DNA from: Bryoerythrophyllum caledonicum
Lineage: Eukaryota; Streptophyta; Bryopsida; Pottiales; Pottiaceae
Direction of reading: 5' to 3'
Assembly (NCBI GenBank): GCA_963971425.1
Contig: OZ020523.1
Location: forward strand, 23,417,105 to 23,481,104
DNA: 64,000 nucleotides
The notes under the pieces were generated by a model. That model had not been told where the DNA came from, did no database searches, and worked only from the letters and a program-made list of their open reading frames with translations. Shown piece after piece: positions 3-25,218 of this stretch (positions are counted from its first letter, which is position 1; every line of letters begins with the position of its first letter). The translations under genes were made by a program, and so were the position numbers.

Positions 3-3000
3 CGAATCCAAAGACCACGACCCAACCCTCCACAAACCCTCGCACTCACACAACTTCTCCCTGCGAACCTCTCCCTGCAAACCTCTCCCCATAGCGACCC
101 CTGGAACTCCCCTTGCGACCTACAAAACCTTGGTAGCGACCTTGTGAATCTTCATAGCGACCCCTGGAAATCCCCCTGCGACCTATCAATTGGTAGCAAC
201 AACCCCTGGAAATCCCCCTGCGACCTACCAATTGGTAATAGCGACCTCCCTAATCCCCCCTGCGACCTACCTAATTCCCCTAGCGACCTACCTAATTCCC
301 CTTGCGACCTACCTAATCCCCCTTGCGACCTACCTAATCGCCCTTGCGACCTACCTAACCCCACTACCAGTACATATACTGGTACGTATTCTGGTGCGTA
401 TTCTGGTACGTATTCTGGTATGTATAATCATACGAATACCGATATGAATACTGATACATATATTGATACGTATATTGGAGTACATATTGGTACGTATATT
501 GGTACGTATATTGGTACATATACTGATTCATATACTGATATGAATACTGATATGAATACCAATACAAATACTTGTACGAATACTAACACGAATACTTACA
601 CAAATATTGATACGAATACCAAGACGAATACTTACACGAATACTCATACAAATACCAAGACGAATATTAAGGCACATACTAATACGAACATACGAATGAA
701 TACAAATATAAAACCAAATACAACTACATATACACACACAAAGACAACCACACACCATCAAAGAAACACATACATATACACACACACACACAAAGACGAA
801 TACATACAATCAAAAAAGCACCAAAAAAAATACCAAAGCCACATACAAAAACACAAAATTCCAAAACAAAACAATAAACCCACCTACTACAAACTACTAA
901 TATTAATTGGAGGGGACATAAACACAAGGCCAAACACAACCAAAAAAAAATATAAACAAACACACACACACCTATACACCATTAATAAAACAAAAACAAG
1001 TACGCAAACAAACACATGGACACAAAAAAAATTAAAGATAAATACAATTACATTCAAAAAAAATATTGAATTTATAAACATCCACCTCTCTCCAAACAAA
1101 CAAGACCTCCATAACATAACAAAGCCCCAAAGAATTACAAAAAAAGAAAAAACATTAAAAAACAACACTAAACACACATATCACAAACTCCTACTACTTC
1201 TAGGAGGGGACATAGAAACTAACCCAGGACCCATGCCTAATATACTAAAAAGACACCCTACTTCACATAAGAAAAATGCAAAAATTTACTTCATACCTAA
1301 TACCATAAAACTACAACCGGAATATAGACACATTGCAAAATCTTTTGCACCTTTCTTAAAAAACACACATACATTACACCACACACATAACAACACATAT
1401 CCAAACATTGCCCGATACGTTCAACAAAAAAATGCGCATCCACCACCTCACATACTATATGCTCTAGTAGTCACTACCCATCCACACATAGATGAATGTA
1501 ACCATCTCTTAAACCCACAAAACCTGAACACAATTACATGGGTCAATACACTTCTACAAAACTTACTAAACTTACAAAATCCACCGGAACGACACATCTA
1601 CACTTCACACCCGTATACAAAGTTCCTTGAAGACAACCAAAATATTATAAACCATGAGAACTCAATACATAAGGAACTATATGACTTTTTACACAGCGAA
1701 ACAATATCTCCCTCAAATGAAACAATAAAAATAAAATTCCCCTACCTACCTAACAATCTCATCAATGAATCACTAAAATGTTTGGACCCTATACCAGAAT
1801 ACACCCACCCACCCCCACCACTTCCCTACATCTCTCCGCAAAACCAAAATATTATATCAAATCAAGAAAATACATACATAATCACATGGAATGCCTCCTC
1901 TCTAAACACTGCCCTTCCTAGCCTACAAACTTTGGTCACGCACACAAATACACCACCAGCCCTCATAGTTATACAAGAAACAAAATTATCTGCCACAAAA
2001 TCCACAAAATATATACAAAATATATTTCAAGACTATAAACTCATCTATAACAATATACATGCACTTACAAGATGCATTCAACAACGAAGACCATACACAC
2101 CAGGCCGAGGAGGTCTCCTTACACTAATACACAAAAAATATGCCTTCCCGGGCAACATCAACAAAATCCCTACCCCAATGCACATATCACCTTACATTCA
2201 AATAATCAAAATTACTAATCACCCTCTACAACCATGGTTAATCTTTCACATGTATATGCCATCTCATCCCGAAGACACTAGATTTATCATAGACATACAA
2301 AACACTATTACTTCCCAAATTCATAATAACCCTAATCACACATACCTATTGTGTGGGGACTTCAACAGAGACATAGCATTAATTGGTCGCCAAAATGGAA
2401 ATCATAACACCCCCCCTCAAACCATTGATTACCAATGGCGCCGCTTCACAGAAAACTTAAACTTCGTCTACATCGATACCGATACACAATTCTCTAGACA
2501 AGGTGGCTATAATTACAGCGACTGGAGTCTAATAGATGGATTCTACATAAATACAAACAACAATACACAATACACCTCTACAACAAACAAGGATGTTATT
2601 CTCAACTCGGACCACTCACCTATACAATTACACATTCCAAATAACACATTAATTAATAGAACTCCTACAATCCTAAAAAATGATACTATACGCATACTCA
2701 ACCCCATTCCAAAAGACAATATAGAAAAATTCAACACCAAATTCTTTGAAAAAAACTCCATACAAATAGACTCCCTCATAAACACTCTCGAAAATAACAA
2801 TCAATTATCACAAATACAATGGCAAGAAGCATGCCACACCCTAGACAAACTTATCAATGCAATCTCTGACACACTAGAACAAACTTGTAAAGCCCAACCA
2901 ATACCTCAAATGACAAACAGAACTTCTCAACAAGGAGGTTACTTACCCCGTAAACTTTCTAAAACTTGGAAACAACACCTAACCACATACCATACTATAC

Positions 3001-5123
3001 GGAAAACCATTAGAATTGTAAAAAATAACCCTCAATGGCGTAATCACCCCATATGCAACGAACTACTAACTATACAATACACCCAAATCCCTACCCCGCC
3101 ACCTTCGGACCTACCTCACGATACATGGATAAAAAATATAGCACTAATTGCAAAAAATGCCAACATACAAGCCCGCAAAATTACCTCAAAATATACCAAA
3201 GATAACATTAAAAAAGCCATTTCAAAATATAGACAACTATACGAAATTAGCCCCAAAAAAATTAACAGGAAAGTTTTTAAAAACCTTGAATATCCACCAA
3301 TGGATTGTATCACAGACCAATACAACAATATTCTAACTAGCCCAGAAGACATTGCAAATGAAATATTCAACCAACAAACCAAAAGTAATAGACCAACAGT
3401 ACCAACATGTAATTATCAACCACAACATCCATCTGAATGTACATGTGCAGTACGCCAGTACCCATGGCACGACCTCGATGGATTTACCCTTGACAAACGA
3501 GGCGAACCAGAAATCTCACTACATAAATACTTTAATATAGCCACATATGACACATGTCTTCACAATCTTGGTAACAACAAAGCCCCAGGCCCAGACCGCA
3601 TCCCAAACTCAATACTAAAAAACATGCCCCCAAGATTCCATAAACTATTATTACTATTCTTTTCTCATTGTTACAAACAAAAACAAATACCTATGTCATG
3701 GAAATCAAGTACAACAATTCTACTATACAAAAAAGGCGATCCATCTATACTACCCAACCATAGGCCAATTGCACTAGCTAACACAATATACAAACTCTTC
3801 ACTAGTACACTCACCTCTATACTATCCTCATACGGTGAAAAATTCAAAATCTTACATGATAGTCAAGAAGGATTTAGAGCAGAAAGAAGTACCGCTAGAC
3901 AAATACAAACTATAATAGCCGCACTAGAAGACGCAAGATTTACAAACCAAGATATATACATACTATACGTCGACTTCAAAAACGCCTTTGGCTCAATGGA
4001 CCATGCCCGACTATTAGCAATAATGATGGACCTTGGTTACCCAAAAGATGCAACTACACTTATTGGTAACATCTATTCTCAATCATCTACTTGTTATACT
4101 GGTGAACATTTTGGGAAAACAAAACCTATACCCATTCAAAGAGGAACTATACAAGGGGATACCCTTAGCCCATACCTATTCATTATATTCTTAGAACCAC
4201 TACTCAGATGGCTAGAACGAGGCAACAATGGATACACTTTTGGCACATCACAAGTCACAATAAATTCTGCCGCATACGCAGATGACCTCGCCGCCATAAC
4301 TAACAAAATCAAATCTATCCAAATACAACTCAACAAAATTGATAGATATTGTAAATGGACCGGAATGGACGTAGGTGTCCCAAAATGTGCCGCTACCGGA
4401 TGCCCAAACAAATCCAAAATAAACCCTACCACTTTTAAAGCCCTTATGCAAGCTTCCAGCATCAATTACCGCAATCAACCAATCCCCATATTACACCAAA
4501 ATGAACCATACATATACTTAGGTACAAATCTTGTTCCATCACTAAAATGGAAAATCCAAATCCACACCACAACGACGAAACTCATCAAACAATGCAATGA
4601 ACTAACAACATGCCCGGCCACCATGAAACAAAAAATAAAAATGATTGATACCGTACTACGTCCAGGTGTGGCATACAGTTTCTACGGTGTACCATACTCT
4701 ATGCCTGCTATCAAAAAACTTGATAAAAAAATAATAGCCATACAAAAAACCATATGTGGACTACCAAAATGCATGTCAAATGCAATAACCCAACTCCCGC
4801 ATAACCTATTCGGGCTTGAAGCTTTCTCCCTCAAAAACGCATACCTCCGTTGTATAGGTGAACAACTACAAAATGCCTTAAATGATAAAGGTAGACTTGG
4901 AAAAATATATAATGGACTAACTCATTATGTCCTTGCCCAATACGGTGGCGCAGAAAACATACCTAGAATTAAAACAAGTGACTGCATAAGATCACCGATA
5001 ACACGAACATTCTTCTTATTAAAACATATAGCTAAAGCCCACCTTAAAAGTACGCTCCCAAACTTCCTCATTAATCCTACAACACTAGAAGAAGAACGTC
5101 GGTCTCCGAAGGAGCCGGCGTGA
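3..5123 (+). CDS. E1 ORF2 N-terminal part: heptads, 2A, APE endonuclease, reverse transcriptase
   Basis: The frame is open from the window edge, so no start can be assigned; the first part is (S/C)DLPNxP heptads (about 90-365), then Asn/Thr/Tyr repeats (about 366-850). A decayed 2A-like block (LLILIGGDINTRPN) lies at 876-930 and a canonical one (GDIETNPGP) ends at 1232. The APE-type endonuclease covers about 1876-2640: WNASSL, QETKL (1971-1988), GDFN (about 2353-2370), SLIDGFYIN and SDH (about 2613-2627). The reverse transcriptase covers about 3550-4300: KAPGPDR, YVDFKNAF (Asp at 3972), GTIQGDTLSP and YADD (Asp at 4281). The frame ends in a short tail (EEERRSPKEPA, stop) that is not its own but the antisense of an inserted LINE 3' end. 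The role is target nicking and target-primed reverse transcription. The sense strand is strikingly poor in G. Confidence 0.88.
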   Translation, partial: RIQRPRPNPPQTLALTQLLPANLSLQTSPHSDPWNSPCDLQNLGSDLVNLHSDPWKSPCDLSIGSNNPWKSPCDLPIGNSDLPNPPCDLPNSPSDLPNSPCDLPNPPCDLPNRPCDLPNPTTSTYTGTYSGAYSGTYSGMYNHTNTDMNTDTYIDTYIGVHIGTYIGTYIGTYTDSYTDMNTDMNTNTNTCTNTNTNTYTNIDTNTKTNTYTNTHTNTKTNIKAHTNTNIRMNTNIKPNTTTYTHTKTTTHHQRNTYIYTHTHKDEYIQSKKHQKKYQSHIQKHKIPKQNNKPTYYKLLILIGGDINTRPNTTKKKYKQTHTHLYTINKTKTSTQTNTWTQKKLKINTITFKKNIEFINIHLSPNKQDLHNITKPQRITKKEKTLKNNTKHTYHKLLLLLGGDIETNPGPMPNILKRHPTSHKKNAKIYFIPNTIKLQPEYRHIAKSFAPFLKNTHTLHHTHNNTYPNIARYVQQKNAHPPPHILYALVVTTHPHIDECNHLLNPQNLNTITWVNTLLQNLLNLQNPPERHIYTSHPYTKFLEDNQNIINHENSIHKELYDFLHSETISPSNETIKIKFPYLPNNLINESLKCLDPIPEYTHPPPPLPYISPQNQNIISNQENTYIITWNASSLNTALPSLQTLVTHTNTPPALIVIQETKLSATKSTKYIQNIFQDYKLIYNNIHALTRCIQQRRPYTPGRGGLLTLIHKKYAFPGNINKIPTPMHISPYIQIIKITNHPLQPWLIFHMYMPSHPEDTRFIIDIQNTITSQIHNNPNHTYLLCGDFNRDIALIGRQNGNHNTPPQTIDYQWRRFTENLNFVYIDTDTQFSRQGGYNYSDWSLIDGFYINTNNNTQYTSTTNKDVILNSDHSPIQLHIPNNTLINRTPTILKNDTIRILNPIPKDNIEKFNTKFFEKNSIQIDSLINTLENNNQLSQIQWQEACHTLDKLINAISDTLEQTCKAQPIPQMTNRTSQQGGYLPRKLSKTWKQHLTTYHTIRKTIRIVKNNPQWRNHPICNELLTIQYTQIPTPPPSDLPHDTWIKNIALIAKNANIQARKITSKYTKDNIKKAISKYRQLYEISPKKINRKVFKNLEYPPMDCITDQYNNILTSPEDIANEIFNQQTKSNRPTVPTCNYQPQHPSECTCAVRQYPWHDLDGFTLDKRGEPEISLHKYFNIATYDTCLHNLGNNKAPGPDRIPNSILKNMPPRFHKLLLLFFSHCYKQKQIPMSWKSSTTILLYKKGDPSILPNHRPIALANTIYKLFTSTLTSILSSYGEKFKILHDSQEGFRAERSTARQIQTIIAALEDARFTNQDIYILYVDFKNAFGSMDHARLLAIMMDLGYPKDATTLIGNIYSQSSTCYTGEHFGKTKPIPIQRGTIQGDTLSPYLFIIFLEPLLRWLERGNNGYTFGTSQVTINSAAYADDLAAITNKIKSIQIQLNKIDRYCKWTGMDVGVPKCAATGCPNKSKINPTTFKALMQASSINYRNQPIPILHQNEPYIYLGTNLVPSLKWKIQIHTTTTKLIKQCNELTTCPATMKQKIKMIDTVLRPGVAYSFYGVPYSMPAIKKLDKKIIAIQKTICGLPKCMSNAITQLPHNLFGLEAFSLKNAYLRCIGEQLQNALNDKGRLGKIYNGLTHYVLAQYGGAENIPRIKTSDCIRSPITRTFFLLKHIAKAHLKSTLPNFLINPTTLEEERRSPKEPA

Positions 5124-5196
5124 ATAAAGTGTCTGTTCGTTCCACTACTAAGACCATGCCCACCGGACAAGGAATTAGTAAACTACAACACTAGAA
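5077..5196 (-). mobile_element. 92-bp LINE 3'-tail insertion inside E1 ORF2, with 14-bp target duplications
   Basis: The insert is 5091-5182. It is flanked by perfect direct repeats CTACAACACTAGAA at 5077-5090 and 5183-5196, and E3 has a single uninterrupted copy of this site. The insert is the reverse complement of the last part of the family 3' UTR and, over all 92 bases, matches E1's own 3' end (about 8513-8604). It is therefore an extremely 5'-truncated, minus-orientation retrotransposition of the tail. The added 106 bp shifts the frame (106 = 3x35+1) and introduces a stop, cutting E1 ORF2 in two. It could equally be a truncated SINE, since the SINE shares this 3' end, but identity to E1 favours the LINE. 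Confidence 0.93.
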
Positions 5197-5328
5197 ATAC
5201 TATGGCGCCAAGAAACACTAAATCATAACACACTCAATGCCCAACTCTCCCAAAAGCTTCTACAAAAACTCATCTCAAAAAATATTTTTGAACTAAACCA
5301 AATTACTATACCAAACGGCACACACATC

Positions 5329-8300
5329 ATGAACAATGAGGATTTCAAAACCTACCACTTCACCCCATCCAAACTAATAAAAAGTGCCCTAAATGTTGCT
5401 AAACAACTATTTTGCCACCCAACATGCCCCACTACATGTCATACTCCTTGCAACATACACCCATACTCTCATATACTTAAAGATCCATTCACCACCCTCA
5501 ACAATAACATCATCCCAAGAAATATTCCCACACCAACCAACCCCCCTAACCCTCCACATACATACCACCCCCGCCCCCCAACATACATCCCCAAAAACCC
5601 TACCACATATCCCATTAATAATATCATAAACCATAAACATATCCAACACACAGACACAAATAACATAAAAAATACATACACAAAATATTTATGTCAATGG
5701 CAACACAATGATAACACATACAATAAATGGCTTCCCCAAAGAGACCTATTTCCACGACATGACACCAACACCTCCACACATAACACAGAAAAATTAAAAC
5801 AATACTACCAAAAAATTCAAAACAAAACATACTCGGATATCATCCTAGCACACCACCCCCAAGAACAATTCTCAGACTCAAGATCCGTAACACCACCCAT
5901 AATTATCCCTCTCTTAAACATCCACACAACAGAATGCAACCCCGAAAATGATATCCTTACATCCTCAAACACAATCCAAATAAATAACAATCAAGCACAT
6001 CTATACGAAGAAAATGGCCGACATTTACATACCATCCCCATTACTAGACTCCAATGGCTATGGAATCAATACAATATAAATTTACAAACTCCTACAAACA
6101 TCGAACCAACGACCCAATCCTTTGAAACCGAAATAATCTGGCTATACCAAAGGTATAAATACCGAATACCAAAAACTGACCCCCTAAAAAATGCACAATA
6201 CACAATACCCACTCCCATCTTAGACTCATTAATCACATCCTTTAACATCGAACAAGCATACTTTTCTTCCCCGGTCACATGTTCTACCAAACTAAAAAAA
6301 TTCTACTCATCTTATGAAAGGGATAAAATATTCGGATCCCTAGGAAAGGCCTTTGACTATAAATGGATTGGTAAAGGTATAGCTCACCCCCACAACGAGA
6401 AAGATATGGAACAAGCAATACATTGGGCTCGACTTGCCGCCAAACACGATCCAAATAACACAAATACGATCATCATCACACCGAACAACAATTGGTACCA
6501 AAACAATAACCAACATTTAAATCCATTTTTAGATTCCCATATCATTGCAGTATTTGAGGCAGACACAATACCATACGAAGAACCTACTATCCCACCCGAA
6601 CTAAAAAAACCCCGAATCGAGCCATCAACATTACAAATACTATGCGTCCATCATCAAAATCAAACCCTAGGTTCCCTAGAACAACTTGCTGAACTTACCA
6701 CCATAACAAACAATTTAAACATACACCGAATATACACAAAATTGGCCCCACCAACACCCATACAAACCCCAGTAAACAAAAGTAAAAACTGGTCCAAACT
6801 AAACTATGTCAACAACACATTAAACTACTCCGTCACACCTCCCCCTCTCCCTGACTACCCAACTCATACTACACCAAAATTTAACCCCGCACACAGTTAC
6901 TACACTGACGGCTCCTTTAAACCACCAGAACAAATTAGCCCGGGTTCTTGGCGCAGAGAAAAAGCTGGCTATGGCATATTTAATTCTATCAAAGAAATTA
7001 AACTAGCCAAAAGACTCCATGGCCTACAAAACGTCCTCAGAGCAGAACTCATGGCCATTCACAAAACACTACAAATCATCACAACAAAATACAAAAATGA
7101 ACCTGCACATATATTCACCGATTGTATAAATGTACTCTACCTACTAAACACTCAAATAACACACCCTACCCTTCACAATAGCCACCCCGACCAAACCATA
7201 TTATCATCAATGGTCCAAATGTTACAAAACCGTACACAAATCACAACTCTTCACAAAGTGAAAGCCCATGCCAACATTGACGGCAACGAACAAGCAGACA
7301 AACTTGCAAAAGAAGGCCGAGAAAAAACACACAAAAATGCCAAAGATCCACACGAACATGCCCATGCCACCCCATACTACTTTCAAAAAGAAGATTGGCC
7401 TTCCAAAGAAGATACCCCCGACAAAGGCCCAATTAGATTTTTGGGCAAATATCTCAAAAAACAAGACCTCTACAACAACCTTGACACAATCTCAGAAAAT
7501 ATTCCTTACATAGAAAAATGGACTAATAATAACGACATAGACAATGAACTCTCTACAAACTTTTGGAAAAACCCCATCATCTCAGACTCACAAATAACAT
7601 GCCTCATCAAATTCCGTACTGGTCAATATATGGGAAACGCTCGCAAACAACTCTTCTTTGGAATAGAAAGGTTCCCATCCATAACATGCCCCATATGCCC
7701 CTCAACGGACCCCGACACATGGCTTCATGTTCTACTCAAATGCCAAAACCACCACATACACTCTCTAATTGTTAAAAGGCATAATAAAGCGGTAGGGGAA
7801 GTCCGGAAATTAATCACCTCCTACAATAAAGCGAGATGTTTTATACTAATGAACGCCGGCACTTTTAATAACAATCCACAAGAAAATACAGTCCCCCCTT
7901 GGCTACTCCCATGCTCATGTGTGATCCAAAGATGTCATTGCAACGCTAGGCTCAAACCGGACATCCTATGTGTTAGAGGTTTAGCATACAATGATCCGCC
8001 ACCCGACCACATTAATCAAGACTACACCATTCAATTCATTGAATTCACATATTGCAACGATAGATTTTCTCCGGAAACAATCCAAAACAAAATAGACAAA
8101 TATCAACCCCTCATTGACGACATCATTGCCTTTGGATGGAAGGTAGACCCCCTTATTGTTATCACATCTGGCGCTCGTGCCACCACCTTTATCCCATCTA
8201 TGAAAACTCTAGAAGATACCTTCAAAATACCCATTGAAACAATCAAAACCACCTTTAAAAAAATTAACACCATCGCTATTCAATATGCCATGTCCATTTT

Positions 8301-8361
8301 GCTACATAAACGTAAAATTGAAAACAACCAAGCCCTCCCCGATACTCAAGATCCCCCTTAA
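5329..8361 (+). CDS. E1 ORF2 C-terminal part: RNase H and restriction-like endonuclease
   Basis: This is the continuation of ORF2 after the 92-bp insertion. The frame is open from about 5182; 5329 is the first Met (MNNEDF). RNase H: catalytic Asp in YYTDGSF (6907), Glu in RAELMAI (7045), Asp in IFTDCIN (7120), Asp in NEQADKLA (7297), all present. C-terminal RLE: CPIC (Cys codons at 7687 and 7696), His at 7726, Cys at 7741, KRHN at 7774-7785, KPD at 7954-7962, the acidic residue in IEFTY at 8041, then KIDKYQPL. This order of CCHC finger, RHN, KPD, acidic residue and K..KY is that of R2-type restriction-like endonucleases. About 430 residues before RNase H have no recognised fold. Without the insertion the two parts would be one reading frame. 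Confidence 0.87.
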   Translation: MNNEDFKTYHFTPSKLIKSALNVAKQLFCHPTCPTTCHTPCNIHPYSHILKDPFTTLNNNIIPRNIPTPTNPPNPPHTYHPRPPTYIPKNPTTYPINNIINHKHIQHTDTNNIKNTYTKYLCQWQHNDNTYNKWLPQRDLFPRHDTNTSTHNTEKLKQYYQKIQNKTYSDIILAHHPQEQFSDSRSVTPPIIIPLLNIHTTECNPENDILTSSNTIQINNNQAHLYEENGRHLHTIPITRLQWLWNQYNINLQTPTNIEPTTQSFETEIIWLYQRYKYRIPKTDPLKNAQYTIPTPILDSLITSFNIEQAYFSSPVTCSTKLKKFYSSYERDKIFGSLGKAFDYKWIGKGIAHPHNEKDMEQAIHWARLAAKHDPNNTNTIIITPNNNWYQNNNQHLNPFLDSHIIAVFEADTIPYEEPTIPPELKKPRIEPSTLQILCVHHQNQTLGSLEQLAELTTITNNLNIHRIYTKLAPPTPIQTPVNKSKNWSKLNYVNNTLNYSVTPPPLPDYPTHTTPKFNPAHSYYTDGSFKPPEQISPGSWRREKAGYGIFNSIKEIKLAKRLHGLQNVLRAELMAIHKTLQIITTKYKNEPAHIFTDCINVLYLLNTQITHPTLHNSHPDQTILSSMVQMLQNRTQITTLHKVKAHANIDGNEQADKLAKEGREKTHKNAKDPHEHAHATPYYFQKEDWPSKEDTPDKGPIRFLGKYLKKQDLYNNLDTISENIPYIEKWTNNNDIDNELSTNFWKNPIISDSQITCLIKFRTGQYMGNARKQLFFGIERFPSITCPICPSTDPDTWLHVLLKCQNHHIHSLIVKRHNKAVGEVRKLITSYNKARCFILMNAGTFNNNPQENTVPPWLLPCSCVIQRCHCNARLKPDILCVRGLAYNDPPPDHINQDYTIQFIEFTYCNDRFSPETIQNKIDKYQPLIDDIIAFGWKVDPLIVITSGARATTFIPSMKTLEDTFKIPIETIKTTFKKINTIAIQYAMSILLHKRKIENNQALPDTQDPP

Positions 8362-13767: not shown

Positions 13768-16700
13768 TTAGTGCATATTAGATGTGGGGTGGTGGATGCG
13801 TATTTTTTTGTTGTATGTATTGGGCAATGTTTGGGTGGGAAGTGTTTTGTATGTGGTGTAATGTATGTGTGTTTTTAGAAATGGTGCGAAGGGTTTTGCA
13901 ATGTGTTCATATTCTGGTTGGAGTTTTATGGTATTAGGTATAAAGTAGATTTTGGCATTTTTCTTATGTGGTGTAGGATGTCTTTTTAGTATATTGGGCA
14001 TGGGTCCCGGGTTGGTTTCAATGTCTCCTCCTAGAAGTAGTAGAAGTTTGTGGTATATATGTTTAGTGGTGTATTTTAAAAGCTTTATTGTGTTATTAAT
14101 GACTTGTTGGTTTGGGGGTAGGTGGATATTTGTATTTTGTGTATGAGTTGTGGGTTTATTTATTTTTATAGTAGGTGTAGTTGTTTTTGTCTTTAGTTTA
14201 TTTTTAGTCCATGTGTTTTTTGTGGTTGTTTTTGTTTTAGTAGAGTATGGATGTATGTAAAATTGGTTGTATTTTACCTTGGTTGTTTTTGTCCGTGTGC
14301 ATATGTAACTATTATGTTTAAGACTATTTGTATGTGGGTTTATGTTGGTTTTTAAAGTGGCTTTTAAATCCTTTTTTTCATATGCGATGTTATTATATAC
14401 TTTGTGGTTTGTACAATTGTTTGTTTTGATGTTTGTATTAGTATTAGGTATAAAATATGTTTTGGTATACTTTTTGTGCGAAGCGGGGTGTCTTTTTAAT
14501 ATGTTCGGCATGGGTCTTGGGTTAGTCTCCATGTCTCCTCCAATTAATATGAGTAGTTTGTAGTAGATGGGTTTCTTGTTTTGTTTTAGAATTTTTTGTT
14601 TTTGAATGTGGCTTTGGTATTTGTGTTTTTTTGATTGTGTGTGTTTGTCTTTGTATGTGTGTATGTATATGTATGTGTTTCGTTGATGGTGTGTGGTTGT
14701 CTTTGTGTGTGTGTATGTAGTTTTATGTGGTATTATATTAGTATTCTTTTGTATGTTTGTATTAGTATAAGTCACGGTTTTTGTCTTGGTATTTGTATCA
14801 GTATCTTTGTTAGTATTTGTGTTAGTATTCGTATGAGTACACGTACCACTATTTGTATTGGTATTTGCATTTGTACAAGTATAAGTATTTGTATTTATAT
14901 ACATACCAGTATGTGTATCAGTATACATACCAGTATTTGTATCAGTATATTTATAAGTATACTCATCGATGTATGTATCAGTATACGTATCAGAATACGT
15001 ATCAGTATATGTACCCGTATATTGAAAAAATGAGTTTTCTAAAAGATTTCTTTCTAAACCTAATTTGTCTAAAACTATGATTTCTAAAAACAGATTGATA
15101 TTTATTTCAATCAGATTCGTATATATTCTTACTTTTATTAGAATTTCTATTTTTAGAAAGTCTATTTTTGGCACCTTCGGCGCCCAACCGGCCGGCGAAA
15201 CATGAATCCCACCTCCAATTTTAATAATTCTACATACTCTCAACAAATTTCTACTATTTAATCGCAAACTCTCCCCAACTTTATATATATAGTTTTTAAT
15301 ATTACTATTAATTTTCCATTTATCCATGTAGTTTATATTCCAATTTCTATTTTTAATCTGTACTCTTTTATTATTCCTATCTTCTCTATTTATTTTTACT
15401 CTGTCATTTTTGTTTCTCATTACAAGTTTGGTTAATTTTCCATCCGTTATTTTTGCATTTCTTAGAATGCATATTCTATTTTTAGTATTGCTGTTTTTAG
15501 CTATAGTCTTCCTAATTGTATTCTTATTATTATTTATTCCCATTACTAATTTGGTGCAATTTCCATCCCTTATTTTTTGATTTCTTAGGAAGGATTTTCT
15601 ATTTTTAGTACTGCTGTTTATAGCTATGTTCTTCACATTTGTATTCTTATTATAACTAATTCCCATTACTAATTTGGTGCATTTTCCATCCCTTATTTTT
15701 GAATTTCGTAGGGAGCATTTTCTATTTTTAGTACTGATGTTTATAGATATGTTCTTCACATTTGTATTCTTATTATAACTAATTCCCATTACTAATTTGG
15801 TGCATTTTCCATCCCTTATTTTTGAATTTCTTAGGGAGCATTTTCTATTTTTAGTACTACTGTTTATTGTTATGTTCTTCTTATTTCTTTTCTTATGATA
15901 ATGGTTTTCTACTTTACCCTTTCTTTTCTTCTTACATATCCGCTCCATTTTTGTTATTTTATTTTTAATATTACTTGCTCTAATTAAGACTTCTGAAATT
16001 TTATAAATATCTATCTTCTTTCTATTTAATTTATTATATCTCTTTTTACTCTCCTTCATTTTTCTATTTTTAGCCATTCTAGTATTCCTTGCCTTTTGAT
16101 GGTTTTTGGGTTTAGAATCCCTTCTACCCTTATGTATCTTTATTACAAAAAATTTATGATTGTTTTCATTTATATTGTTTCCTATTTTGTTATATGTAGT
16201 TATGATACTTATTTTCTTTTTCCTTCTATTATTTATTTTAATCCCATCTTTTCTCTTATTCCTTTTATTTTTTATTTTGGTTTTGATACTTTTCTTTTTG
16301 GAATTTTTACTTAGTTTGTGTGAGAAGTAGTATATTATTATTATCATTCTTTCTATTTTGTATATTGGTTTTTGCAATGGTTGATAAGTTCTTGTTTGAG
16401 TATTTATACCTGTATCTGTATCCGTGTCCATATCCTTACTTGTATTTGTATTTACATTAGTATTTTTTTCCGTATATGTGTTTATGCTTGTATTTGTATC
16501 TGTACTTGTAGATGTATTCGTCTCTGTATTCTTATCTGTATTTGTATGTGTCTCCGTATATGTATCCGTATTTATATCGGTATCAGTATATGTTATAGTG
16601 TATTTGTCTTTAATCGTACGAGTATATATATCAGTGTACTTGCTGGTATACGTACTAGTATATTCCCTGTTGTACGTATCAGTATACGTATTACTGTTCA

Positions 16701-18006
16701 TTGTAGTTATGATACTTATTTTCTTCTTCCTTCTATTATTTATTCCATTTTTTCCCGTACATGTGTTTCTTGTATTTATTTTTACATTAGTAATTTTTCC
16801 CGTACATGTGTTTATGCCTGTATTCGTATCTGTACTTGTAGATGTATTTGTGTCCGTATTCTGATATGTATTTGTATATGTATCCATATATGTATCTGTC
16901 CCCGTACATGTATATGAAGCTGTATTTGTATACTTTATCGTATACGGTCCCGGATTTATTTCTAATTCTCCGCCTACAAGTAGTAGAAGTTTATAATGTG
17001 TGGGTTTGATATTGTGTTTCATAATTTTTTATTTTTGTGTGAATTTTAGAGCTTTTATTATTTTTATGTTGTTGAGGTTGTGTTTGTTTGAAAGCATGTG
17101 TATGTCTTTTCTACTTGCTACATAGTAAATACTAGTAAGAAGATCTATGTTGTTTTGTGTAGCATGGTATACTATAGGGTGGATGTGTATTTGTCTTCTC
17201 CATTGAGTATGAGTAGTTTGTATTAGGAGGGATTTTTTATTTTGTTTTAGGATTGCTTGTTTTTGTGTGTGGTTTTGGTGTTTTGTTTTGTACTTTTCTT
17301 TTGGTTGTGTATATTTGTCTTTGTATGTATGTATGTGTATTATTATTTTTTGGTGGTGTGTAGTTGTCTTTGTGTATGTGTGTATAGTTGTGTTTGGCTT
17401 AGTACTAGTGTTTATGTTTATGTTTATATTAGTGCGTGTCCCCATTTTTATTTTAGCATACGTATGGGTATTGGTATTGGTATTAGTACTTGTATTTATA
17501 TATGTATCAGTATTAGTATTGATGTACATATCAGTATTTATATTCGTATTCAGATTAGTATTCGTATCCGTATTCTGATCAGTATTTATATCTGTATGCA
17601 AATCAGTATTTGTATCCGTAATTGTACATGTGTGTGTATCAGTATTCATACCAGGTATTTTTGTGCAAGATAGTATATATTTGGTATACTTTATGTATTT
17701 ATTTTTAATACAACATGAGGGTAGGGTGTATGTATTGAAGTATGTGTATCCTAGGGGGTGTACGTCTGTGTATACGGCCAAGTATTTTCTTATATATTGT
17801 GCCATGTAGACTATTTTGTTCAATACCATGTATTCTACCATGTATTCTACTATGTAGGCTATCAAGTATTCTACCATGTATTCTACTATGTAGGCTATCA
17901 AGTATTCTACCTTGTATTGTCTTCTATTGTATAATGTATGGGTCTTGTGTATAAGAAGGGATGGTATGTGTATGATACCTTTTGTCTTGCGGTCTTCCTT
18001 CTTCAC
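13768..18006 (-). pseudogene. E2 ORF2 leader: low-complexity region, four 2A-like blocks, 123-bp repeats
   Basis: From 18006 (GTG overlapping the ORF1 stop; no AUG at the junction in this frame) the frame runs to a stop at 17029-17031 and continues in the same frame to 13768. It encodes Tyr/Val/Met-rich and Asn/Thr-rich repeats. 2A-like blocks in order: a decayed KLLILNGED at about 17180-17220 (readable in a shifted frame), ELEINPGP at 16945-16968, DMETNPRP at 14512-14535 (Gly to Arg, expected inactive), and canonical DIETNPGP at 14002-14025. Between the second and third lies a Lys/Asn/Arg-rich stretch made of 41-residue repeats (about 15420-15900). The N terminus is thus far longer than in E1 or E3. 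Its end near 13860 is frameshifted. Confidence 0.8.
15440..15900 (-). repeat. 123-bp tandem repeats in E2 ORF2 leader
   Basis: Roughly four copies of a 123-bp unit (41 codons, so frame-preserving). Copies of the segment reading TCTATTTTTAGTA on the plus strand recur at that spacing. The encoded repeat contains STKNR, then RDGKxTKLVMG, then YNKNTN, and is strongly basic. The same unit occurs in more copies in E4 (22440-23660), and is absent from E1 and E3. Confidence 0.85.
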
Positions 18007-21000
18007 ATGTTTGACGTCTCACCTTCAATTCTTGGGGTGGTCATAACTTTGGTGATGGCTTGCAAGGATGCGAGGGCCGTGCTCATTGACTCTTGGATGG
18101 TGATCATTTGGGCCTTCAACTCATCATGTTTCTTGTCCGCATATGCTTGCGTCTCTAGTCTTATTTTTTTGTTGTTTTCTTCCACCTTGGAATCCACAAT
18201 GGCAATGATGTCATTCTTCGTGAGGACATTTGTTGGCTCATCAATCTTGAAGGCCTCCACGGTGTTAACAATAGCTTTGTTAACATCTAGGAATCCAAAT
18301 TCCACAATTTGCTCCTTGGTCGGTGGCTCTACTCCATCAAGACTTCTTCGGTGTGGTGCAAAGTCCACGTAATGTCCTTCCATCTTGATAACTTTCCCTA
18401 CAAACTTCCTATAGATTATAGGGTTGATGCAATGAACATTAGCACTACCATTGTGTCTAATCCCATCATCCCGATGGAACCAAATGTGAGTGGCATTACC
18501 CGCTCCCATGATTTTGTGAATCTCTTCACTAGTGTCAACCATGCTCATACGAATAGGTAGTGGTGATAGGGTTAAGGTAATGGCGTCCTTCTTTGCCTTA
18601 CTCTCACGGTTGATGCCCTTTGATGTAGTTCCAACAATGTTCGTTGGTTGCAAAAGCTCGTGGTTGGTTGCCACTTTGTGGAGCTTGATTTTTGCCGCTT
18701 GTTGTGGGGTTGGTGCAATAATGAAGGCATGGGATTCCTCTTTGATTTTCTGCACACTTGTTACTTCAAACTCAAGCCCACGGTTAAAACCATTGTGAAG
18801 GATCTCCACAAAAAGATCATTAGCGGTCATGCCTCTAAGAGATTCACTTTTTATTTTGATAGAGAGGTTAGAGTTTCTTGATATATCATGGTATGTTTTG
18901 CAAACTTTGCCAAGAGCATATTGTTTGTCTAGTTTTAAGATGAAGGGTCTAAGACCTTTGAGAAGTCCAATGCCATCTATCTCTGGCTTATGCAAGTGCA
19001 ATTTGACTACCCCCGCCCATACTCCCTTTTTCCCGGCATTCTTTAAACTCATACAAAGGATGGAGATGGGATCAATTACCTTTTTGCCGACTTCAATCTC
19101 CATGAACTTTAACCTATCAATCACCATAGCTTTGACATCATCATGCATGAGTACAAGGTTAGATAACTCAAAATGAATTGAAACATGAAAGTCTAGGGCA
19201 AGCCCCGTAGTGTCATTAACCGGGATGTCAAATGGGATTTGTGTTACATTGAGGTGCTGGCCCACGATTCCTTTTCTTGCACAAGGGTAGAGGATTTGGG
19301 GGATTCTTGGGAATGCCGGAGTTGCTAAGGAGATTTCCTTGGCCTCCATTTCTCTAATTCCTCTTGTGATCATGCTAGGTATGGATTCATCACAAGTTAG
19401 TGGCTCAAGTCCCTCCTCTTTGGCCATATCTTCCATCACTTGAAAGCCCATCCAAAATTTGAGGGAGGATGCATCTAGGTCAAGAGTGTGCATCATACCT
19501 TCATTGTTGGAACTCTTCTTTTTCTTGTTGGAGAGGGATACTTCGTCTTGGCTTGTTGTGGGGGCAATGCTCGGGGATCTTTTGTGTGTCTCACCACTTG
19601 CTTCTACCTCCATGGCGTCTCCATACATGAGAGTGCGTCTACTGCTCCACTGGTCCATACTTGTGCTGTCCTGTGAGGGGAGGTCGTATTGAAATGTTAT
19701 TGGGTCGCTACAGGGATCACCTTGGTCTCTGTTGCGATCAGCAGGGTGTTTATGAGGATTAGTAGGGTCGCTGGCACGAGTAGCAAGGTCGTTGGCACGG
19801 GCAGCAGGGTCGCTGGCACGAGCAGCAGGGTCGCTGACACGGGCAGCAGGGTCGCTGGCACGAGCAGCAGGGTTGCTGGCATAATCAGCAGAGTCACTGG
19901 TACAAGCAGCAGTGTCGTTAACACCAGTAGCAGGGTCACTGGCACAGTCAGTAGGGTCGCTGGTATAAACAGCAGGGTCGCTAACATTAGGAACAGGGTC
20001 GCTGGCACAAGAAATACAGTCGTTAGCACAAGGAACACAGTCGTTAGCATAAGGAACAGGGTCGTTGGAGCGATTGACAGGATCGCTGGAGCGATCAACA
20101 GGGTCGCTGGAGTGATCAACAGGGTCGCTGGAGCGATTAACAGGGTCGCTGGAGCGATCAACAGGGTTGTTGGAGCGATCAACAGGGTTGTTGGAACGAT
20201 CAACAGGGCCGCTGGAGCAATCAACAAGGCCGCTGAAGTGAGCAACAGGGTCGCTGGTTTTATCAGCAAGGTCGTTAGTATAATTCGCAGAGTCGCTGGC
20301 ACAATTAGTAGGGTCGTTAGTATAATCAGTAGGGTCGCTGGCACAGGTAGCAGGTTCGTTGCCTCGGGCAGCAGGGTCGCTGGCATGAGCAGTAGGGTTT
20401 GGGTGAGACTTGATAGGGTCGTAACGGATGTTAGCAGGGTCGCTATACAAATCGACGGGGTCGCTATCTGTTTTAGCTAAGTCGCTACGGGTTACGGTGG
20501 GGTCTGTGGGCTGACCAGCACGGTCGCTGCAGGGATCGAGTGGGACAGTATACTGATCAGTATGGTCGTTGTCTAGGGAGAGTGAGGAGAGTAGTGGGGA
20601 GGGGGTGTTCGGGGAGGAAGAGGAGAGAGGGGAGGGAAACAGAGTGAGTGAGGAGAGTAGTGGGAGGGGCAGGGAGGGGGAGATGGACAGGGGTGGGAGG
20701 GGTGGGCGGAGTGGTGAGGGCGTGGGAAGAAACAGGGGAGGGGAAGGGAGGGCTGCAGCAGGGGATAGATGGAGGTAAGGAATGCGAGTGAAGGAAGTGA
20801 AAGGAGAAGGTGTGTTGAGTGTACTCCCTGTTGTGTAGATGAGGGTTGATCCTCGGTTCGATGATGAGTTGAATCGGTTTTTGTTGTGGAGTTGTTGCAC
20901 TTCACTTCCAGATGCAGTGTTGTTGCGTGCTGCGATCTTGGTGCGGGGATGACGTCGGTTGCAGATCTTTGTTGTGGAGGGGCAGCAGTCCACCTTTGTC

Positions 21001-21716
21001 TTCTCTGGTCTGGAGGTGCTCTCCGTTGCGTGTTGTATGTTGTTGTTGTCACCTTGTATTGTCGAGTCTTTGCTGTGAGGTCCTGTTGTGCTGTAGATGG
21101 GGTTGTCGCAGATGTGTTGGCTGTTGCGTTGTATTTTCGTCCGCTCTTGTTGCCATGTCGTTTGTTGCGGTGTTGATGGTGTGCTTCCTTGTTGTTGGAG
21201 CGAAGGTAGATTCAGATCTGGAGAAGATTTTGAGCGCTTCCGCCCGAGATCTATACACACAAGCTTATTGAAGTGTTCTGTTAGTATTATGATGTAGAGC
21301 TTTGTGCATGTGTATACATAGTGAGATTTCTGTGTACTACCTCTAGTGTGTGTGGATGTGCTGAAGTGTGTAGTGTTGCTATGGATCAGCTGAACTAGTG
21401 CAAAAAAGAGATGGAAGTGAGTAGAGATAGCCTGATATGGTGCGTTGATGTTGCCTTGGGGCAGATCTGTGAGGTATATCGTGTCTTCCTTCACTTCAGA
21501 GGTTGTTCTGCAGTGTTGTCTTTCAGATCTGATGCACAAACAACTTATACAAGCGATGTTAGATCTATTTTGTACTTTGTATGTGTTACTAAGAGAGCAT
21601 AATGATAACGTGAGTCTAACAATGATGCAATAAGGAAGAAATAAGGAGATGAGGGGGGGGTAAGAGGTGGCCTGAAGGTGATGAAGGGCGTTGATGCGAT
21701 GGCAGCAACGCTGCAC
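18003..21716 (-). CDS. E2 ORF1: unrecognised conserved LINE protein
   Basis: The minus-strand frame is open for 1237 codons. The conserved part matches E3 ORF1 and probably starts at Met 19658 (MDQWSSRRTL), giving about 551 residues; the long upstream extension, including SDPxxx heptads (plus-strand 19690-20480), is in frame and may or may not be translated. Conserved landmarks are FWMGFQ, FPRIPQILYP, GQHLNVTQIPFDI, MHDDVK, LLKGLRPFIL, RHNGSANVHC and a C-terminal charged helix likely to form a coiled coil. I see no CCHC knuckles or RRM. By position it should be the RNA-binding/chaperone partner of ORF2. It ends in SNM followed by TGA, overlapping the ORF2 frame as in E3 and E4. Confidence 0.78.
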   Translation of the reverse strand: MQRCCHRINALHHLQATSYPPLISLFLPYCIIVRLTLSLCSLSNTYKVQNRSNIACISCLCIRSERQHCRTTSEVKEDTIYLTDLPQGNINAPYQAISTHFHLFFALVQLIHSNTTHFSTSTHTRGSTQKSHYVYTCTKLYIIILTEHFNKLVCIDLGRKRSKSSPDLNLPSLQQQGSTPSTPQQTTWQQERTKIQRNSQHICDNPIYSTTGPHSKDSTIQGDNNNIQHATESTSRPEKTKVDCCPSTTKICNRRHPRTKIAARNNTASGSEVQQLHNKNRFNSSSNRGSTLIYTTGSTLNTPSPFTSFTRIPYLHLSPAAALPSPPLFLPTPSPLRPPLPPLSISPSLPLPLLSSLTLFPSPLSSSSPNTPSPLLSSLSLDNDHTDQYTVPLDPCSDRAGQPTDPTVTRSDLAKTDSDPVDLYSDPANIRYDPIKSHPNPTAHASDPAARGNEPATCASDPTDYTNDPTNCASDSANYTNDLADKTSDPVAHFSGLVDCSSGPVDRSNNPVDRSNNPVDRSSDPVNRSSDPVDHSSDPVDRSSDPVNRSNDPVPYANDCVPCANDCISCASDPVPNVSDPAVYTSDPTDCASDPATGVNDTAACTSDSADYASNPAARASDPAARVSDPAARASDPAARANDLATRASDPTNPHKHPADRNRDQGDPCSDPITFQYDLPSQDSTSMDQWSSRRTLMYGDAMEVEASGETHKRSPSIAPTTSQDEVSLSNKKKKSSNNEGMMHTLDLDASSLKFWMGFQVMEDMAKEEGLEPLTCDESIPSMITRGIREMEAKEISLATPAFPRIPQILYPCARKGIVGQHLNVTQIPFDIPVNDTTGLALDFHVSIHFELSNLVLMHDDVKAMVIDRLKFMEIEVGKKVIDPISILCMSLKNAGKKGVWAGVVKLHLHKPEIDGIGLLKGLRPFILKLDKQYALGKVCKTYHDISRNSNLSIKIKSESLRGMTANDLFVEILHNGFNRGLEFEVTSVQKIKEESHAFIIAPTPQQAAKIKLHKVATNHELLQPTNIVGTTSKGINRESKAKKDAITLTLSPLPIRMSMVDTSEEIHKIMGAGNATHIWFHRDDGIRHNGSANVHCINPIIYRKFVGKVIKMEGHYVDFAPHRRSLDGVEPPTKEQIVEFGFLDVNKAIVNTVEAFKIDEPTNVLTKNDIIAIVDSKVEENNKKIRLETQAYADKKHDELKAQMITIQESMSTALASLQAITKVMTTPRIEGETSNM
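19690..20480 (-). repeat. 21-bp (heptad) tandem repeats in E2 ORF1 leader
   Basis: Degenerate 21-bp tandem repeats encoding SDPxxRx-type heptads in the ORF1 frame (for example SSDPVDR, SSDPVNR, ASDPAAR). Because the period is a multiple of three, all frames stay open. Related heptads occur in E4 (SDLPTLP type, about 36440-36700) and at the left end of E1 (CDLPNPP type, about 90-365). Confidence 0.85.
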
Positions 21717-22152
21717 TCTTGACTCGTTGTTGTTCTCAATGGTGTTGACGAGGTCTGGATTGGAGAAGGGCGGTGGGACTCAAGGGGGGGGGCGTTCAGG
21801 TTCGGTAACCCTCTCTAGATCTACTCCAGATCCTACCGTATGATGAGCTGAGAAGTACAGATCTGTGTACCAACACGTGTGTCTCCCCGCTTCAGATCTA
21901 AACACCACTCAAAAATGACTTCAGCAGCTCTTCCACGGTTCACCTTTTGCAGATCTAGTGTTCTAAACGTCCCTGCCCAACACATGTAACTGATAGCCTC
22001 CCCTCCTCTCAAATCTGAAGCACACTAGGGACATACAACGGGCCAGCAACCTCCTGTTGTTCGTGTCTCCACTCTCTGAGACTGAGTCCCTCACCCCTCC
22101 TCACCAGAAATTTCGGAGCTCTACTCAGCCATCTTCGCTTTCTCTCCCCCCT
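21717..22152 (-). promoter_or_regulatory. E2 5' UTR / internal promoter region
   Basis: Sequence upstream of the ORF1 open frame up to the E2/E4 junction. It shares blocks with the E4 5' end (GAGCTC, then TTTCTGGTGAGGAGG, then AGTCTCAGAGAG). AGATCT-type hexamers occur near 21821, 21858, 21895 and 21952, and again further into the leader. As in other LINEs a promoter should lie here; no TATA motif was identified with confidence. Confidence 0.55.
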
Positions 22153-22188: not shown

Positions 22189-24612
22189 CTATTTTTTTAA
22201 TCGCAAGTTCTTCTCATCTTTATATATAACAAATTTAATGTTACTATTAACTTTCCTTATATCCCTATAATTGATATTCCAATTTCTATTTCTAGTCTGT
22301 ACTATTTTATTATTCCTCTCTTCTCTACAAATTTTGTTTCTCATTACAAGTTTGATTAATGTTTCATACGATGTTTCTGAATTTCTTAGGAAGCATATTC
22401 CATTTTTAGTTCTATTGTTTATAGCTATGTTCTTAATATTCGTATTCATATTATAATTAATTCTTATTACTAATTTCGTCAATTTTCCGTCCCTTAAATC
22501 AGATTTTCTTAGGATGCATATTCTATTTTTAGTACTGCTGTTTATAGTTATTTTCATCCTATTTGTATTCTTATTATAATTACTTCTAATTACTAATTTC
22601 GTCAATTTTCCATCCCTTATTTCTGATTTTCTTAGGATGCATATTCTATTTTTAGTACTGCTGTTTATACTTATTTTCTTCCTATTTGTATTCTTATTAT
22701 AATTACTTCTTATTACTAATTTCGTCAATTTTCCATCCCTTATTTCTGATTTTCTTAGGATGCATATTCTATTTTTAGTACTATTGTTTATACTTATTTT
22801 CTTCCTATTTGTATTCTAATTATAATTACTTCTTATTACTAATTTCGTCAATTTTCCATCCCTTATTTCTGATTTTCTTAGGATGCATATTCTATTTTTA
22901 GTACTGATGTTTATACATATTTTCTTCCTATTTGTATTCTTATTATAATTACTTCTTATTACTAATTTCGTCAATTTTCCATCCCTTATTTCTGATTTTC
23001 TTAGGATGCATATTCTATTTTTAGTACTGCTGTTTATAGCTATTTCCTTCATATTTGTATTCTCATTATACTTTTTTCTTATTACTAATTTCTTCAACTT
23101 TCCGTCCCTTATTTCTGATTTTCTTAGGATGCATATTCTATTTTTAGTACTGTTGTTTATAGCTATTTCCTTCATATTTGTATTCTTATTATACTTTTTT
23201 CTTATTACTAATTTCGTCAACTTCTCGTCCCTTATTTCTGATTTTCTTAGGATGCATATTCTATTTTTAGTACTGTTGTTTATAGCTATTTTCTTTTTAT
23301 TTGTATTCTTTTTATAATTATTTCTGCTTACTAATTTGGTCAATTTTCCATCCCTTATTCCTGATTTTCTTATATATTTAATTCTATTTTTAGCAATGTT
23401 GTTTATAGTTATGTTATCAATATTTGTACTCTTATTATAATTTATTCCCATTACTAATTTTGTTTCTTTACCATCCCTTGTTTTGGATTTTCTTAAGAGG
23501 CATATACTATTTTTAGTGCTGTTGTTTGTTGCTATGTTCTTATTATTTGTATTCTTATGATAATTATTTCTCATTACTAATTTGGTTACTTTTCCATCCT
23601 TTATTCCAAATCTTCTTAGGAAGCTTATTCTATTTTTAGAACTACTCTTTGTTGCTATGTTCTTCTTATATGTTTTCTTATGAAATTTGTTTTCTGCTTT
23701 ACCCTTTATTTTCTTCTTATATATCCTTTCCGATTCTTTCCTTTTATTTTTAATATTACGTGCTCTATTTGAAACCTTTGAAATTTTATAAATATCTATC
23801 TTCTTCCTATTTAATTTATAATATCTCTTTCTTCTCTCCTTTATTTCCCTATTTTTAGACATTTTGATATTCCTTGTCTTTTGATTGTTTCTGGGTTTAG
23901 ATTCCCTTCTACCCTTATGTATTTTTTTTACAAAATATACATTCTTGTTTTCATTATTATTGTTTCCTTTTTTGTTATATGTAGTTATGATCTTTATTTT
24001 CCCTTTCCTTTTATTGTTTTTCCTAATTTCATCTTTTCTCTTATTCCTTTTATTTTTTATTATTGTTTTGATACTTTCGTTTTTTGTTTGTATATTTAGT
24101 CTATTCCTTGGGTTAATTTTATCCTTTTCATTTTTTTTGAGTTTATGAATATTGTCCGCATTCATATTTGTATCGGTGTTCATCACCTTTCTTGTATTTG
24201 TATTCACATACATGTTTATAATTCTTCTGGCATATGTATTCTTTCCTGTATTCATATCTGTGTTTTTAACTGTTTTTGTATATGTATTCGTGTCTTTTCT
24301 TATGTATGTATTTGTATCTATAGTCGTATGTGTTTCTATATTCGTGATCGTATATGTATGTATATATATATCGGTATCTTGGTCTATGTTCGTATCTGTA
24401 GCCGTATCTGTATTTGTATACGTATTCCAATGTGTATATATATATGTGTTTTTGTATTCAGTTTTGAGGAAAATACAGTATGTGTAGTAAGTATCTAGTA
24501 TGTATCCGACGTCATATAGTGTGTAGCTACTAACTTGGGATACTATTTTTTCAGAGTTTGTATGAGAATACGAGCTAGTTGGTCTATAGTCCCTGAGATT
24601 GGTTACCTTCAC
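22189..24612 (-). pseudogene. E4 ORF2 leader fragment with 41-residue repeats
   Basis: The frame opens at the ORF1 stop (GTG at 24612 overlapping TGA). It codes a short unique segment, then Tyr/Thr/Asn repeats (about 24140-24480), then Lys-rich sequence and many 41-residue repeats (RICILRKSEIRDGKLTKLV type). One in-frame stop (AAT TAG in place of AAT AAG) lies at about 22816-22818, after which the same frame continues to 22189. Homology to E2 stops near 22160, where E2's own 5' end begins. No 2A block or enzyme domain is reached in this piece. Confidence 0.78.
22440..23660 (-). repeat. 123-bp tandem repeats in E4 ORF2 leader
   Basis: Seven well-conserved copies have the plus-strand landmark AGGATGC starting at 22511, 22634, 22757, 22880, 23003, 23126 and 23249, an exact 123-bp period. 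More diverged units lie on the right to about 23660. The period equals 41 codons, so copy-number change does not break the frame. Confidence 0.95.
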
Positions 24613-25034
24613 ATGTTTGACGGTCCTTCACCAAGTAGGTTAGGTGTTATGGTCCCCGTAATGCCTTGCATCATGCTGAATGTCACGGCCACCGTTTCTT
24701 GGATCTTCATCATTTGAAGTCTTAGTTCTTTGAGTTCTTGTGCCTTCTCTTCAGCAAGTGTTTTTGCCTCCTCTCTTAGAACCTTGTTGTTAGCTTCAAA
24801 GGCTTCTACCAGGTCTTTTTTGGTGATTACATCAGTGGGAGCTTGAAGTTTGAAGGTCTCTACTGTGTTTACTATAGCGTTGTTCACATCACTAAATCCG
24901 TATTCCACTAGTTGTGCTTGAGATGGGGGGTTAGCTCCATCGATGCTCCTAATATGGGGTGCAAATAACACAAAGTGCCCATCTACCGGGATAGTCTTGT
25001 TGACAAAGGCTCTGTAAACTATTGGATTACTGCA
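24609..25034 (-). pseudogene. E4 ORF1, C-terminal piece (split by E3)
   Basis: The minus-strand frame, read from the E3 junction, continues the ORF1 protein that breaks off at 35113 (CSNP on one side; IVYRAFV, FAPH and the coiled-coil C terminus on this side). It ends SNM followed by TGA at 24609, again overlapping the ORF2 frame. Homologous to the C terminus of E3 ORF1 (FAPHRRSLEG, FGFEDINTAIVNT). The frame was apparently intact when E3 landed in it. Confidence 0.88.
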
Positions 25035-25218
25035 AACCTCCCCCCCTCCAGAGGGCCAGGTAAGTACCCCAACCTTTTGTTTATCAATTCCTTACTCATT
25101 CATCTCAGGCCACATACAAGCTACTTCCGTAACTCAATTACTGCTGAGCTGGTTCCACTACAAGTATCCAGGCAATACACAGTATCTCACAAGGCTACAT
25201 TGGAGATTACTCACCCTT

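Follow-up and report, generated by a model that had tools for sequence, protein, structure and literature searches.

Does a moss retrotransposon use a 2A, or StopGo, peptide to separate its enzyme from the protein leader encoded ahead of it? The question is raised by a 64,000-nucleotide stretch of Bryoerythrophyllum caledonicum DNA (contig OZ020523.1, positions 23,417,105 to 23,481,104), here called the window, which holds three copies of one non-LTR retrotransposon (E1, E2 and E3) and a 5' fragment (E4). We put the probability at roughly 0.87 that ORF2 of this element carries a 2A of the functional type that would free the enzyme from its leader, a reading built on motif, reading frame and comparison with relatives.

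Architecture of the element

The order along E3 (forward strand) is ORF1, an overlapping leader frame, the 2A motif and the ORF2 body up to 34863. ORF1 is open from stop to stop at 25018..26850 (610 aa) and gave no Pfam match at an E-value of 0.001. The leader (26829..27857) is open in the ORF2 frame and overlaps the end of ORF1. The main ORF2 body (28753..34863) carries Pfam matches to an AP-endonuclease (APE; 28846-29232), a reverse transcriptase (RT; 30346-31137), a PCIF1_WW-like domain (32587-32991) and RNase H (33397-33822), followed at about 34189-34593 by a zinc knuckle and the motifs of a restriction-like endonuclease (RLE), located through aligned invariant residues. In E1, also on the forward strand, the low-complexity leader (3..1232) enters from before the window start with the ORF2 frame open, and the part predicted to follow the skip (1230..5123) comprises a conserved region of unknown function, an APE recognized by eye and the RT. 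This frame terminates within a short insert at about 5091-5182, and the remaining ORF2 (5182..8361) encodes the PCIF1_WW-like domain, RNase H, zinc knuckle and RLE. On the reverse strand, E2 has an ORF1 open from stop to stop (18003..21779) and a leader (14002..18018) with one in-frame stop near 17029. E4, likewise reversed, consists of an ORF1 tail and a leader only (leader 22189..24627, with about ten 41-residue tandem repeats and one internal stop), and inspection of these two parts found no 2A. A separate ORF1 thus lies directly before ORF2, and overlaps it, in E2 and E3. All three copies are damaged: E1 by its short insert, E3 by a frame break between the leader ORF and the ORF2 body at 28753-28826, and E2 by several breaks.

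Some further features of the window can be recorded here. By eye, the interruption of E1 ORF2 is a 92-bp insert (region 5077-5196) between 14-bp repeats, CTACAACACTAGAA; the string ERRSPKEPA, encoded at this insert, reappears close to 8572, where the E2 frame ends. The 123-nt tandem repeats, which are Lys/Asn-rich and keep the frame at 41 residues a unit, occupy 15414-15901 of the E2 leader and 22374-23681 of the E4 leader. More fragments of the same family, an ORF1 and ORF2 3' pieces, lie at 35069-38455 (reverse) and 54523-55954 (forward). Residues 1-480 of a kinase frame at 42954-48524 find their best matches in the moss Ceratodon purpureus, at 67% and 58% identity and 56-60% query coverage, and the next in Sphagnum (35%); this neighbouring gene thus makes a moss, a land plant, the very probable host.

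A dual-endonuclease LINE

APE, RT, RNase H and an R2-fold RLE occur together in the element, which assigns it to the dual-endonuclease LINEs of Dualen/RandI type; Dualen is described as the group with both endonucleases (PMC4640811). The E3 body gave Pfam matches to RVT_1 (5e-30), RNase_H (2.9e-10) and PCIF1_WW (2.2e-10), and E1 to these same three families only, with no Exo_endo_phos_2 match. Placement of the APE N-terminal of the RT relies on a weak Exo_endo_phos_2 match in E3 (E=5.4e-4, 20.2 bits, below the Pfam cut-off of 27.4) and on the PF03372 and PF14529 domains of three relatives (P0125, P0126 and P0002). C-terminal of the RT, a C-C-H-C knuckle, an R-H pair and a D..E..K series are invariant in 18 aligned sequences, and the P of the PD is nearly so. 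A structural model of the RLE (mean pLDDT 70.7) gave 352 PDB matches, of which the seven at E<=0.001 are all R2 retrotransposon proteins, and R2 is also the best sequence match of the RT. An RT tree that contained no named Dualen reference placed E1 and E3 in a 72-tip group with green-algal proteins, at inner and basal support of 0.29-0.65, and so fits this assignment only loosely. The claim of two endonucleases, made earlier from the bare sequence, is therefore borne out by the Pfam domains, the invariant RLE residues and the R2-like fold, and the motif's position and frame hold as well.

The PCIF1_WW domain (PF12237) sits between RT and RNase H in E3 and E1, and is annotated as well in many relatives among the matches listed. 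The catalytic motif of PCIF1 is NPPF; none was seen by eye in the PCIF1_WW-like domain.

The 2A motif ahead of the enzyme

A six-frame scan of the 64 kb for D-x-E-x-N-P-G-P returned exactly three occurrences, each reading DIETNPGP and one in each ORF2 copy: at 1209..1232 in E1 (forward), 27834..27857 in E3 (forward) and 14002..14025 in E2 (reverse). The sequence-only reading had placed the signature at the same point in all three, and its coordinates were right. Since the copies are homologous, the three occurrences count as one event. Each core has LGG before it and MPNILKRHPT after it, and KLLLxLGGDIETNPGP stands in frame ahead of the ORF2 enzyme region in all three, within one continuous frame that is coding on both sides of the site. 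In E1 the 25-residue 2A region, including the upstream KLLLLLGG, covers 1158..1232 (forward), and the predicted skip would fall between Gly (1227-1229) and Pro (1230-1232). The interval first proposed for the motif, 876..1232, does end on the core, but a decayed 2A copy, at 885-935, falls within it as well. The motif had further been described as lying just before the enzymatic part; it does precede the ORF2 enzyme, but some 214 conserved residues, with the APE start set by eye in this estimate, separate it from the APE. The structural model of the region after the site is too poor to be relied on (mean pLDDT 50.2), and an Rfam search of the window gave no match at the gathering threshold.

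The StopGo core octapeptide has been defined as (D/G/C/N)(V/I)ExNPGP (PMC12846837), a definition satisfied exactly by E1, E2 and E3. The upstream hexapeptide has the leucine-rich run of motif classes 2 and 6, and this run with a G before the D resembles the L-rich upstream classes of viruses, which supports StopGo; against it, p10-p11 of the window copies read GG, in contrast to the (A/S/C)G of the viral L-rich classes (PMC12846837). At the enzyme-proximal sites of relatives these two positions read CG (P0121-P0126), SG (P0127 and P0002) or AG (P0006).

Conservation among relatives

A search with E1 residues 385-820 found eight proteins, one of which (P0001) begins downstream of the site; the remaining seven (P0121-P0127), with 53-64% identity to E1 over the searched region, all retain NPGP at the same place. 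Together with P0002, which came from the RT search and retains it too, 8/8 near relatives that span the site have kept it. Loss of NPGP from other copies had been named at the outset as the observation that would speak against a 2A; it is kept in 3/3 window copies and in these eight. GDIxxNPGP is present in all eight, with five strict StopGo cores (GDIEPNPGP in P0121-P0124, GDIETNPGP in P0127), two with His for Glu (GDIHPNPGP at the proximal sites of P0125 and P0126) and one with Gln (GDIQPNPGP in P0002). His at p14 is an active StopGo variant, and Gln at p14 is not among the variants given in the same source (PMC12846837), which counts against the motif in P0002.

Conservation is concentrated on the motif. 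Ten sequences (E1-E3 and P0121-P0127) were aligned without gaps and anchored on NPGP, which makes the identities in the leader minimum values. Averaged over all pairs, identity is 0.12 at -80..-41, 0.17 at -40..-19, 0.48 at -18..-11 and 0.90 in GDIxxNPGP. Farther out the picture is different. The strict core was found in 2 of 33 more distant relatives (P0006 and P0008), ahead of different sequence, and its lack in the other 31 counts against StopGo; these 33 are the proteins with the RT motif at residue >=1200 among the best 120 of 155 RT-search matches, chosen by their long N-terminus and not by homology of the site position. Judged from these alignments, the near lineage has the 2A throughout and the more distant relatives, among the matches listed, have it sporadically; most of the wider group, within the same matches, seems to do without it.

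Several observations were made alongside. By eye, the 2A of P0006 and P0008 lies ahead of OTU- or Josephin-like deubiquitinase domains, and P0008 has a second, NPGE-ending copy upstream. Two other LINE proteins with PF13966 (P0111 and P0113) show NVELHPGP and DVAENPGP shortly ahead of the endonuclease. A single scan of viral contigs for related loci confirmed none.

Selection on the core and on the leader

Codon comparison indicates that the 2A core is under purifying selection. Across the nine codons of GDIETNPGP (20.3 non-synonymous sites), E1, E2 and E3 differ from one another by synonymous changes only: four (E1/E2), two (E1/E3) and three (E2/E3) over 6.7 synonymous sites. These counts are small, and it is the conservation across relatives that carries the weight; selection read from damaged copies also reflects the past. 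For the leader, dN/dS is 0.66-0.91 at -45..-26 (ungapped) and about 0.5 over the last 150 codons (E1 against E3 and E2); it is about 0.07-0.12 after the 2A site and about 0.08 in the RT.

The leader is of low complexity, rich in A and C, and poorly conserved, yet it stays open in the frame of ORF2. No stop occurs in this frame in E1 (410 codons), E3 (343) or E2 (1009 codons before the site), as against 16 and 31, 24 and 14, and 97 and 111 stops, respectively, in the other two frames; further leader stretches of E2 and E4 have one stop each, which is the closing codon. Shuffles of the leader intervals were open in 0 of 500 cases for each, a comparison that, like the stop counts, is descriptive and no independent test, as the intervals were preselected as open frames.

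Tandem and decayed copies

The 2A motif is also found upstream of its enzyme-proximal position. The decayed copy of E1 at 885..935 (forward; YYKLLILIGGDINTRPN) reads GGDINTRPN, and that of E3 at 27672..27713 (forward; YYKTPLGGNQNKYE) reads LGGNQNKYE. On the reverse strand, E2 has a copy at 14512..14535, DMETNPRP (in context GGDMETNPRP), in which Gly has become Arg, a far-upstream site at 16945..16968, ELEINPGP (GGELEINPGP), two positions off the strict core, and an additional 2A-like copy with a broken frame. Among these upstream copies NPGP is kept solely at the far-upstream E2 site, and the enzyme-proximal copy is the one intact in all three elements. That upstream duplicates have mostly lost NPGP while the enzyme-adjacent site is intact speaks for StopGo; that one retains it, so that upstream decay is incomplete, speaks against.

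In two relatives (P0125 and P0126) both sites are intact, with the NPGPs 140 and 159 residues apart, and the segment that follows the lower site recurs as a diverged duplicate behind the upper one (43% over 67 and 40% over 78 residues). The upper-site segments are closer to the single site of P0002 (45% and 48%). Behind the NPRP copy of E2 the first part of the post-2A segment is repeated, in a duplicate of more recent origin (71% over 52 residues). From these alignments, the unit of 2A plus downstream segment has probably been duplicated more than once. The leaders of P0121-P0124 contain a repeated module (SAYRPRHK ... ALPNL), the upper copy of which in P0121 seemingly ends in a decayed 2A, by eye.

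Proposed release of the enzyme and competing explanations

If the site works as StopGo, a ribosome would finish the low-complexity leader and arrive at NPG, where the nascent 2A peptide in the exit tunnel would block bond formation. The leader would be released with a C-terminal Gly, and translation would resume at Pro, giving an enzyme that begins Pro-Met-Pro and comprises the conserved region, APE, RT, PCIF1-like domain, RNase H and RLE. Its purpose would be to detach the enzyme from a leader whose length and sequence both change rapidly. The skipping itself, its frequency and this purpose are what we infer; the motif, its frame, its conservation and selection, its duplication and decay, and the order of the domains are observed.

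A weak or terminating 2A might instead throttle the amount of enzyme made. This is unlikely, though it deserves some weight, and it overlaps with release by StopGo, so that the odds we attach to the several readings do not sum to one. Some viral 2A sites seem to terminate a share of ribosomes (PMC11512398; PMC5009743), and the GG of the window copies, in place of the viral (A/S/C)G, would suit a weakened site. The core, however, fits the efficient consensus, and the four upstream classes that were tested, one of them L-rich, gave about 93% or more separation in reticulocyte lysate (PMC12846837).

Could ORF2 instead begin at the ATG right after NPGP, with the upstream part untranslated or unrelated and the likeness to 2A a leftover? 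Met follows NPGP in 10 of 13 sequences (E1-E3 and P0121-P0127), a point in favour of such a start and against StopGo, but it is missing in P0002, P0006 and P0008, all of which have NPGP. A good start-codon context has a purine at -3 and G at +4, and CCCATGC has neither. The leader holds earlier ATGs, in any frame: six in E1, nine in E3 and 47 in the stretch of E2. Ahead of the candidate start, the core codons change synonymously only, in a leader whose frame is open; and in P0125 and P0126 the residues next to the upper tandem site are Ile and Pro where a start would call for Met. We consider this start, the main rival to release by StopGo, improbable as the sole explanation, although the ATG may serve as a supplementary start.

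It is highly improbable that the peptide is conserved for folding, as a structural element within an N-terminal domain of ORF2. The region that follows is well conserved too (0.69 over 25 residues), as folding would have it, but the conserved residues are exactly the StopGo core and the leucine run, with little conservation further up; the distant P0006 and P0008 keep both before different sequence; and tandem copies stand at other places in P0125, P0126 and E2. Chance likeness, for which one might cite the low-complexity, A/C-rich leader frame, is scarcely credible, as base composition predicts about 5e-5 occurrences of D(V/I)ExNPGP per window and conservation in 8/8 near relatives spanning the site contradicts it.

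A possible second recoding at the ORF1/ORF2 junction

Release by StopGo would act on ribosomes already in the leader, and the junction with ORF1 may bear on how they come there. A 16-nt block, CGTCAAACATGTGAAG, is identical at 16/16 positions in E3 (26837..26852, forward), E2 (18001..18016, reverse) and E4 (24607..24622, reverse), at the overlap of the ORF1 stop with ORF2, and was not found elsewhere in the window with up to two mismatches. Its flanks have diverged: over the 73 nt before it (3 nt between omitted) there are 24 (E3/E2), 23 (E3/E4) and 32 (E2/E4) matches, and over the 28 nt after it 11, 6 and 8, in an ungapped comparison where a small indel may lower the E3 values. ORF2 lies in the -1 frame of ORF1, and its frame in E2 opens only 2 nt before the block; any frame change from ORF1 would therefore have to fall inside the block. 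A GUG overlaps the ORF1 stop (AUGUGA), the first 44 codons of the E3 leader contain no in-frame ATG, and inspection of the conserved block by eye shows no slippery site of the classical X-XXY-YYZ form. Coupled reinitiation at overlapping stop-start codons (AUGA, UAAUG) has been described, with a LINE among the cases (PMC5972666). An identical block between diverged flanks suggests a second recoding step, with a restart at GUG or a -1 shift at the ORF1 stop as possible forms.

Taken further, one mRNA would undergo two recodings in series. The block CGUCAAACAUGUGAAG at the ORF1 stop would shift some ribosomes to -1 or restart them at the overlapping GUG; these would make the fast-evolving leader, and StopGo would then free the dual-endonuclease RT. 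Lineages with tandem 2A sites would also cut out a third, middle peptide. In that case the leader would persist mainly for the sake of its frame, as a dispensable decoy or means of ribosome delivery, and StopGo would long have belonged naturally to land-plant genomes. We offer this larger scheme tentatively, at somewhat less than even odds.

Comparison with known systems

StopGo is in use in plant biotechnology, and a 2A site from a moss would supply plant-derived 2A tags. A selected 2A in a moss retrotransposon would also show a long coexistence of plant translation with StopGo, and would place the dual-endonuclease type among the LINEs that carry 2A. A constant 2A behind a freely changing leader, together with duplicates that decay, also offers a way to test how a LINE obtains ORF1, leader and enzyme as separate products of a single mRNA.

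LINEs that bear a 2A occur in protists and animals, in clades such as Ingi, CR1, L2, Rex1 and Crack. Those of the APE type in multicellular organisms were reportedly described by Odon et al. in 2013, and 2A in LINEs is said, from the same work, to tend to accompany loss of ORF1; E2 and E3 depart from that correlation, as each has a separate ORF1. The existence of 2A-bearing non-LTR retrotransposons is also noted elsewhere (PMC4981915; PMC11512398). The moss element shares with L1Tc of Trypanosoma cruzi and the APE-type LINEs of multicellular organisms a 2A-like core in a LINE protein, and differs in its two endonucleases, its separate ORF1, its moss host and the position of the 2A after a leader of several hundred residues. 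A partial literature search, run without the Odon 2013 survey, found no report of 2A in a Dualen-type or land-plant element.

With the L-rich StopGo class of viruses the window copies share the core octapeptide and the leucine-rich upstream run (PMC12846837), and the tandem sites recall viral polyproteins that contain several 2A sites (PMC11512398); the carrier here, however, is a retrotransposon. In a large 2026 survey, nothing pointed to plant viruses using StopGo naturally, and the six plant-virus cases detected were ascribed to wrong host labels (PMC12846837). In domain content the element resembles Dualen/RandI of green algae, where a single ORF2 likewise combines APE, RT, RNase H and RLE, and its RT groups, at weak support, with proteins from named green algae; the moss element differs in its 2A, its low-complexity leader and its host. 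RandI is given for green algae in one published table, where no land-plant row with it was seen (PMC3747384). While 2A in LINEs was already known, its combination with a dual-endonuclease element, a separate ORF1, a moss host and tandem 2A modules appears to be new, as far as these literature searches reach.
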